From Bacteroidetes bacterium GWF2_35_48 (GTDB taxonomy: Bacteria > Bacteroidota > Bacteroidia > Bacteroidales > GWF2-35-48): a stretch of DNA of 64,000 nucleotides. Positions within the stretch are counted from its first letter, which is position 1; each line of letters opens with the position of its first letter. Of the stretch, positions 5,644-6,919 are shown in pieces. The notes beneath the pieces are model-generated. The model had not been told where the DNA came from. It did no database searches and was given only the letters and a program-made list of their open reading frames with translations. The DNA is taken from assembly GCA_001769125.1 (NCBI GenBank), contig MEOG01000124.1, positions 1 through 64,000 on the forward strand. The letters are read 5' to 3'. Made by a program: the position numbers and the translations under genes.

Positions 5644-6120
5644 ATGAAATTAAAAGAAATATTAAATCTTCAATACTCATCAATCGAGGAGACAGTTATT
5701 ACACGAGCAAAAACTTATCTAACCGGTCGAGTTGCCTATCTTGGCAACAGAAAACGATACCCCGGCAAAAAATTGGATTGAGAAATTTTTGACTCATATA
5801 AAGAATTTCCGATTTTGACTGGATGTCTGCAGTTGCTCATGGGTTTAGGCTTTGAGAAAGCATTCCCTCTCTTGAATCTCGGTCATGAAGAACTTCAAAA
5901 ATTGATTTCAGCTTTAGAATTTTTACCTGTCGAGCGTGATTTAGAGAGGAAATCTGAAGAAATGATTGACGCTATTTCTATAAGGGATTTAGAGTCTAAT
6001 CAAGAAATCACTATATACTGCAAAATTAATAGTCAAGGCACAAAATCTGAATTAGATGCAAGGGAGGATAGGCTCGTTTATATTATGTCTTTTTCAGAAT
6101 ATAGTTCTATCAAAAAATAA
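5644..6120 (+). CDS. hypothetical protein with in-frame TGA, first gene of a foreign cassette
   Basis: An ATG at 5644 opens a frame of 158 codons that ends at TAA 6118-6120, interrupted only by TGA at 5779-5781 (context KKLD-TGA-EIFDSYKEF). Read through, the product starts MKLKEILNLQYSSIEETV and ends SEYSSIKK. It has no TGG codon. No family is recognised. It is followed after 12 bp by a second frame with four more TGA codons. Either TGA is read as an amino acid (Trp fits best) in the source organism, or this is a broken gene with a single stop. The upstream 174 bp are A/T-rich without clear signals. Confidence 0.5.
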
Positions 6121-6132
6121 AGCGTAAAAAGC

Positions 6133-6696
6133 ATGAGTTTGAAAAATTCTAAAAACACTTCAGAACCTTTGCAGTGAGAGGAAATGCTCGCTATCACGGC
6201 GCAATTGTGAACCTCGGGAAATTATCTGTTTTCGTTGTTCATAAAAATGGGGAGTTATACTGGACTGAAAGTCTCGGAACTGCTTCGTTTACGAGTTTGT
6301 GATGTAAAAGATAAACAGGAAATTGAAATTATTAGGAATAAAAAAGTTCAAATTATTAAATTGCATAAGGAACTCCAATCTGTTTTAATTGAATATATAT
6401 GTACTTTAAAGAATCAAAGTGATGAAAATTGATTATTTGCGAATAAGTCAGGAAAACAAGTCAGTAGGCAATACATAAATCAACAATTCAAAAAAATTAA
6501 GTTAAAATCTGGCTTGGATATTAGCAGCATCACAACAGGAAGTCTCGTTAAAACATTCTGTTTACATATATTTAGTAGAAACCCGATTCCAACTACGTTG
6601 ATTCTTTTGTCAAAAAGACTTGGACATTCTTCTTCAACCTATACACGCCAGTGATTAGATATTCATGAATTCGGTACTATTTATGATACACTATAA
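6133..6696 (+). CDS. tyrosine-recombinase-fold protein with four in-frame TGA codons
   Basis: An ATG at 6133 opens a frame of 187 codons ending at TAA 6694-6696. In-frame TGA occurs at 6175, 6208, 6430 and 6652; there is no TAA, TAG or frameshift, and no TGG. The read-through product matches the catalytic half of phage integrase/XerD-like enzymes: TGLKVSELLRLRVCDV (box I), IRNKKVQIIKLHKEL (beta-hairpin Lys region), ITTGSLVKTFC (box II), RLGHSSSTYTRQ-TGA-LDI (last box). At the canonical catalytic positions box I Arg is Lys, box II His/Arg are Gly/Val, and the nucleophilic Tyr position aligns with the fourth TGA. So it is either a DNA-binding, catalytically dead recombinase homologue from a TGA-sense organism, or a decayed integrase. 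It lies about 150 bp from tRNA-Asn. Confidence 0.55.
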
Positions 6697-6794
6697 CAAT
6701 AAAAGCCTGATTTTTTTGAAATTCTTGAGTTATTCTATAAAATTTAGAGGCAATCTTGGCTATAAAAATTCACACCCTTATTCACACCCCAAAA

Positions 6795-6835
6795 AAAATG
6801 ACCACTGTAAATATTTGATTTTCAGTGGTCATTTT
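6795..6835 (-). terminator. intrinsic terminator of tRNA-Asn
   Basis: A perfect 13-bp inverted repeat (AAAATGACCACTG / CAGTGGTCATTTT) with a 15-nt loop. On the minus strand it is followed by a run of T, just downstream of tRNA-Asn. Confidence 0.8.
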
Positions 6836-6845
6836 AACAATTCCG

Positions 6846-6919
6846 CTCTCCCTCAAGGACTTGAACCTTGGACCCCCTGATTAACAGTCAGGTGCTCTAA
6901 CCAGCTGAGCTAAGGAAGA
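6846..6919 (-). tRNA. tRNA-Asn (anticodon GTT)
   Basis: A 74-nt cloverleaf on the minus strand. The acceptor arms TCTTCCT / AGGGAGA pair, the D-stem is GCTC/GAGC, the anticodon loop sits in CTGACTGTTAATCAG with anticodon GTT, the T-arm is CAAGG-TTCAAGT-CCTTG and the discriminator is G, as expected for Asn. CCA is not encoded. A terminator follows it. A recombinase-like gene of foreign appearance lies on the far side of that terminator, which recalls integration next to tRNA genes. Confidence 0.95.

Follow-up and report, generated by a model that had tools for sequence, protein, structure and literature searches.

Two adjacent reading frames in the genome of the Bacteroidetes bacterium GWF2_35_48 are interrupted by TGA codons and by no other stop, which raises the question of whether these codons once stood for an amino acid or are the stops of a dead gene pair. 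Both frames of this cassette lie on the forward strand of the window, i.e., the whole stretch of 64,000 nucleotides analysed here (contig MEOG01000124.1). ORF1 (5644..6120; P0001) comprises 158 codons plus TAA with a single internal TGA at 5779 and encodes an orphan protein, and ORF2 (6133..6696; P0002), with 187 codons plus TAA, carries four internal TGAs (6175, 6208, 6430, and 6652) and is the remnant of a short tyrosine recombinase. A recount of the frames confirmed the one plus four in-frame TGAs and the lack of TGG reported in the initial annotation: the 159 and 188 codons contain neither TAA nor TAG before their end and not a single TGG, and each frame is closed by TAA. Judged by codon usage, 16–24% of random stop gains would be expected to be TGA, giving a probability of about 1e-4 to 8e-4 for five out of five; this is a raw figure for a case that was picked by its reader because it looked odd, and such a selection lowers the weight of raw probabilities. 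As a read-through control, frames of at least 90 codons with at least two read-through stops, lying largely outside standard ORFs, were collected on the 82-kb host contig. Reading through TGA resulted in six frames, the longest being that of ORF2 (191 codons) and the next one having 129 codons, compared to one frame for TAG (90 codons) and 19 frames for TAA (longest 173 codons). Since TAA read-through yields this number of frames of up to 173 codons, long read-through frames are not rare in themselves, and what distinguishes ORF2 from the others is a homology that runs from end to end.

In a comparison with Pfam, ORF2 matched the family Phage_integrase (PF00589) with 57 bits (cut-off 27.1) and an E-value of 2.7e-15, and with the PHROG database it matched integrase family 216 (E 3.4e-20). 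It belongs to a family of short tyrosine recombinases (c. 195 aa) that occurs widely in Bacteroidota and in a part of their phages. Relatives were collected by profile scan (at least 80 viral loci and at least 80 genome loci), and 96 distinct full-length sequences out of 174 loci were aligned, the profile that selected them having been built from an alignment containing the window copy. The homology to these 96 relatives extends through all four TGAs, with the start of ORF2 falling on the first Met of the family and its end on the family stop or within two codons of it. At E ≤ 1e-12, 14 of 295 genomes of the order (the own genome included) matched ORF2, and, leaving the cassette aside, the 14 matches, spread over 13 genomes, were all intact frames with 28–36% identity. 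The top identity of ORF2 was 36% to any relative found and 35% to any of the 96 aligned ones; nothing closer than 36% was detected in scans of genome and viral contigs, with lineage-specific patterns, or in 395 genomes of the phylum, plasmids, and phages. Among the 97 rows, ORF2 has the longest end branch (3.05, the next longest being 1.29 and the median 0.15). Its codon score (0.073) is not decisive, as 44 intact AT-rich relatives span a range that includes it (0.034, SD 0.042). The host genome harbors 12 matches to PF00589, ten of them above the cut-off, with in-frame stops in the window copy only, and across 119 genomes all of the best PF00589 matches listed were intact. Outside these 12 matches, an additional weak recombinase piece (E 0.04, one TAA) was seen on host contig 45. 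L190, L194, and L195 are nearly identical recombinases although their MAGs carry the labels Bacteroides and Clostridium, which points to either transfer or a binning error.

The initial annotation had described the TGAs as standing in natural-looking Trp contexts and had proposed a look at the corresponding sites in homologues. This description applies to the first TGA of ORF2 (6175..6177), located in a conserved column with Trp in 92 of the 96 relatives, but not to the remaining three. The second (6208..6210) and the third (6430..6432) fall into variable columns in which no relative has Trp (E 28, A 27, Y 21, F 6, and others, and P 46, L 17, Y 11, F 10, and others, respectively), and the fourth (6652..6654) coincides with the catalytic Tyr, present in 96/96. 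Intact standard-code homologues with unrelated residues, which had been named as a sign of an ordinary pseudogene, were thus found for three of the four sites with homologues, the ORF1 site having none.

An active tyrosine recombinase needs the catalytic set R...HxxR...H...Y. At the alignment positions of this set, which read R, H, R, H, and Y in every one of the 96 relatives, ORF2 displays K, G, V, H, and TGA, i.e., the invariant residues are lost as R46K, H136G, R139V, and Tyr174 to TGA, and H165 is kept together with two Lys at positions 70–71. With R46, H136, and R139 lost in addition to the catalytic Tyr, recombination of DNA by this enzyme is hardly conceivable, whichever of the known meanings of UGA (Trp, Gly, and Cys) is applied. 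Summed over the four ORF2 columns, the profile score was +5.5 nats for Tyr, +2.6 for Trp, +1.8 for Phe, and +0.3 for His, and below zero for all others, including Cys (−2.0) and Gly (−4.2). Among the known meanings, Trp would fit these columns best, mainly through one column, and a TGA in that Trp column is equally expected from a TGG decaying to TGA.

Downstream of ORF2, a tRNA-Asn gene (anticodon gtt) was identified on the reverse strand (6845..6919), so that its 3' end faces ORF2; the 3' end of a tRNA gene is a usual site of integrated elements. A search of the window for a repeat of this 3' end, which would mark a duplicated attachment site, found none. Between ORF2 and the tRNA gene, two copies of TTCACACCC are located 12 bases apart (6769..6789, forward strand). 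This motif occurs three times in the window on both strands, compared to 0.28 expected copies, and its repeats are possibly arm-type sites of the recombinase. Next to them, a hairpin (6795..6835, strand not given) with 18-nt arms of 94% complementarity probably represents a terminator. In the sister species G090, both the tRNA-Asn gene and the gene downstream of it are present; the 846 contig bases adjoining the tRNA contained no cassette, and neither protein matched anywhere in that genome. Inspection by eye revealed a repeated GTATGCAAAT-like unit just past the 3' end of its tRNA-Asn (L066, about 780–805). Short direct repeats are therefore found beyond this 3' end in both species, with differing sequences (TTCACACCC and GTATGCAAAT-like, respectively), as though the site had served different elements. 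The cassette itself revealed no recognisable suppressor tRNA or phage structural gene.

There is good support for regarding the cassette as an integrase relic without function in the present host. The pair would be what is left of a mobile element that once resided at the 3' end of tRNA-Asn. In the present host, its TGAs would act as plain stops, and for that reason at most short peptides would be made and no recombination would take place. As the single likeliest origin of the TGAs we regard, with modest confidence, chance decay, part of which probably followed a phase in which the protein, though no longer catalytic, had retained its frame; the occurrence of TGA at all five sites would then be a coincidence, noticed because it is rare. 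Decay is favoured because dead integrases beside tRNA genes are common and recoded temperate replicons are rare, and because the active site is dead.

Plain neutral decay, taken alone, fits poorly. A neutral pseudogene would be expected to show mixed stops and frameshifts, but five of five stops are TGA, frameshifts are missing, and three of three deletions are in frame. The loss of functional residues at the same pace as all others, which is also expected of a neutral pseudogene, was observed: 20 of the 47 conserved columns (at least 85%) are changed in ORF2, and its profile score of 131 bits is similar to that of sequences neutrally decayed to the same extent (mean 126, SD 20, 400 simulations; P 0.40). 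For a simulation of stop gain, 15 divergent relatives were used as starting points, and runs were kept when 18–22 conserved columns had been lost (2731 of 6000). These matched runs accumulated a mean of 127 substitutions and 4.0 TAA and TAG codons. Though 2.1% of them were free of TAA and TAG, none of the 2731 combined this with at least four TGAs, and a coarser grid revealed one such run in 2400. With respect to indels, ORF2 differs from the family by three deletions, all of whole codons (2, 1, and 2) and at columns filled in all 96 relatives, and it has no frameshift despite 14 homopolymers of at least five bases; the chance of finding no frameshift is 0.06, 0.008, or 7e-5 if, as an assumption rather than a measurement, the indel:substitution ratio is set to 0.03, 0.05, or 0.1, respectively. 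Columns that are hydrophobic in the family are violated in three of 41 cases (7.3 expected, P 0.06) and polar ones in six of 75 (11.0 expected, P 0.07). Together with the profile score, these tests support selection on the fold at best weakly. Over much of its divergence, ORF2 seems to have retained its frame, after or during the loss of catalysis; a kept frame does not say that TGA was sense.

The stop type and the kept frame are also what favours a recoded source, a reading that we put forward tentatively and consider clearly less probable than decay. The cassette would be a fragment of an unsampled replicon of Bacteroidota, either a phage or a plasmid, in which UGA stood for an aromatic residue (Trp, less likely Tyr) and in which ORF2 encoded a non-catalytic recombinase-like protein that was kept as a protein, with its frame under selection. 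This fragment would then have been stranded at tRNA-Asn in a standard-code chromosome, where it is dead. With all five stops being TGA, TAA closing both genes, and TGG missing, the five codons read as Trp in 345 codons would correspond to a normal Trp frequency (TGG accounts for 1.1% in nine relatives). A source of this kind would also account for the heavy divergence with a kept frame and three in-frame deletions, though with a top identity of only 36% to any relative. Of the meanings known for UGA, Trp agrees best with the four columns of ORF2, but a Trp in place of the nucleophile, added to the loss of R, H, and R, means that the protein would not have been an active integrase in the source either. 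In the parts of the literature considered here, crAss-like phages that read TGA as Trp and infect standard-code hosts are described (PMC10136315; PMC11210395), though with the recoding mainly in late genes, and a matching suppressor tRNA is given for only 35% of TGA-recoded genomes (PMC10136315).

Members of the family are carried by phages, e.g., by Bacteroides phage BS-TP1, and by other viral contigs, several of about 100 kb. The 111.7-kb genome of BS-TP1 encodes an intact standard-code member (L240, 3971–4588) between genes for a DNA ligase and an ATPase. The gene block in which it lies also includes a dUTPase, and related frames are found in many viral contigs. We compared 160 related viral loci, some of them on the same contig, and inspected eight gene by gene. 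Of 66 near full-length recombinase frames, 64 contained TGG. In-frame stops were present in the recombinase frame of only two of the 160 loci, both with mixed stops, and no TGA-only recombinase frame or clear recoding was found in the whole set. When ORFs of at least 50 aa were counted, reading through TGA added at most 0.13 to the ORF coverage, i.e., with standard-code ORFs the coverage of these loci is nearly as good, and standard coverage fell below 0.75 in twelve of the 160 loci, ten of which have a GC content of 26–29%. Each of the eight inspected loci turned out to be standard or to lack any hint of recoding. The initial proposal of a replicon or phage with TGA as Trp holds as far as a real gene remnant, a kept frame, and one Trp column are concerned, but no recoded relative was found.

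Several loci that had looked recoded were rejected on closer inspection. L103, conspicuous by ORF length, is covered to 95–98% by standard ORFs and harbors its recombinase as an intact 194-aa standard ORF, which TGA read-through fuses with the neighbouring genes. A group around L280 (L279–L281, L286, L292, and L306) showed a coverage gain of about 0.2 with ORFs of at least 120 codons, which fell to 0.04–0.08 once ORFs of at least 50 aa were counted. Inspection of L280, L292, and five other loci revealed intact standard genes with TGG, and no tRNA was detected in seven of the loci in question. L241, also noticed by a gain in length, is already covered to 97% by standard-code ORFs.

ORF1 is an orphan neighbour of the dead recombinase without a recognisable relative. 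It matched no Pfam family above the cut-off, no PHROG below E 0.27, and nothing among viral contigs, phages, and plasmids. Apart from ORF1 itself, 393 genomes of the order contained a single match (E 0.008, with mixed stops), and a search of 317 loci including the flanks of the recombinase relatives gave nothing useful (best E 0.20). Matches in the PDB to artificial armadillo repeats (E 0.001–0.002 over 38 residues) were rejected, as no stretch passed alone. The single-sequence AlphaFold model had a mean pLDDT of 43, too poor for a structure search. In frame, the codon score of ORF1 is 0.128, compared to 0.199 (SD 0.050) for host gene chunks. We consider it doubtful that at least ORF1 is a shorter standard-code gene starting after its TGA. 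A standard ORF of 101 aa with a TTG start does exist at 5815–6120 behind this codon, but the codon score is positive before the TGA as well, though lower and based on few codons (0.083 versus 0.146 after it). For ORF2 such a reading is impossible, as its homology spans the four TGAs and the longest TGA-free piece has 73 codons.

That UGA is read in the present host, by suppression or by a changed host code, with both genes being expressed, is very unlikely. Only the open frames themselves speak for it, but the neighbouring genes were correctly described as using TGG and ending at TGA: the stop codon is TAA in 23, TAG in seven, and TGA in four of the 34 window genes that reach 160 aa and do not overlap, and TGG is used normally (1.2% of codons). 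The tRNA-Trp with a UCA anticodon, proposed as a check on suppression, was searched for in the host assembly (98% complete, 142 contigs). No UCA anticodon was present among the 41 tRNAs detected (typed by ARAGORN, with 150 of 357 initial candidates scored, so that one may have been missed), the sole Trp anticodon among them being CCA; the window likewise contained no UCA-anticodon tRNA. The pattern YTTCARA, used as a probe for this anticodon, resulted in 13,694 matches and was uninformative. By eye, the host tRNA-Trp(CCA) shows the normal five base pairs in its anticodon stem, one of them being G-U at 27:43, and its RNA fold has no significant energy (z −0.07). Its stem thus differs from that of the UGA-reading tRNA-Trp with a 4-bp anticodon stem described in the part of PMC13092985 considered here. 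Based on stop and TGG use, the tRNA set, and this stem, a change of the host code was rejected and suppression in the host, as initially suggested, became unlikely. Moreover, five leaky stops would be expected to leave nearly no product.

Least probable of all is a reading of UGA as another residue, best Tyr, by which the fourth TGA would still supply the catalytic tyrosine: Tyr scores higher than Trp over the four columns (+5.5 versus +2.6 nats), but one of the four dominates and without the column of the fourth TGA the two are nearly equal (2.5 versus 2.2), R46, H136, and R139 remain lost, and to our knowledge no genetic code has UGA as Tyr.

Under ordinary decay, the locus would be one more integrase graveyard beside a tRNA gene and would caution that pseudogenes with TGA as their only stop can be mistaken for recoded genes. 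Should the recoded source be true instead, genes of UGA-recoded replicons would be able to enter standard-code chromosomes and persist there, and the cassette would point to an unsampled recoded mobile element of Bacteroidota.

Among known systems, the cassette resembles the Crassvirales with TGA as Trp in its TGAs inside frames, its TAA as final stop, and its standard-code host, as described in the part of PMC10136315 considered here. It differs from them in consisting of two genes only, in having no recognisable suppressor tRNA or structural gene, and in the lack of a recoded relative among those found. Decayed integrases on viral contigs (L290 and L293, two contigs that probably carry the same element) share in-frame stops with ORF2, but these are mixed (TGA, TAA, and TAA), as they are in a short decayed fragment of genome G156 among the matches listed (TGA and TAA); both serve as natural controls for mixed stops, though few in number. 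The closest system to ORF2 is that of the short tyrosine recombinases of PF00589 and PHROG 216, e.g., L005, L067, and the integrase of Bacteroides phage BS-TP1 (XPO95184.1). While ORF2 is set apart from them by four lost catalytic residues, three in-frame deletions, four in-frame TGAs, and a best identity of 35%, it shares with them its length, start, and stop, Trp15, the hydrophobic pattern, Lys70/71, His165, and a homology over its entire length.
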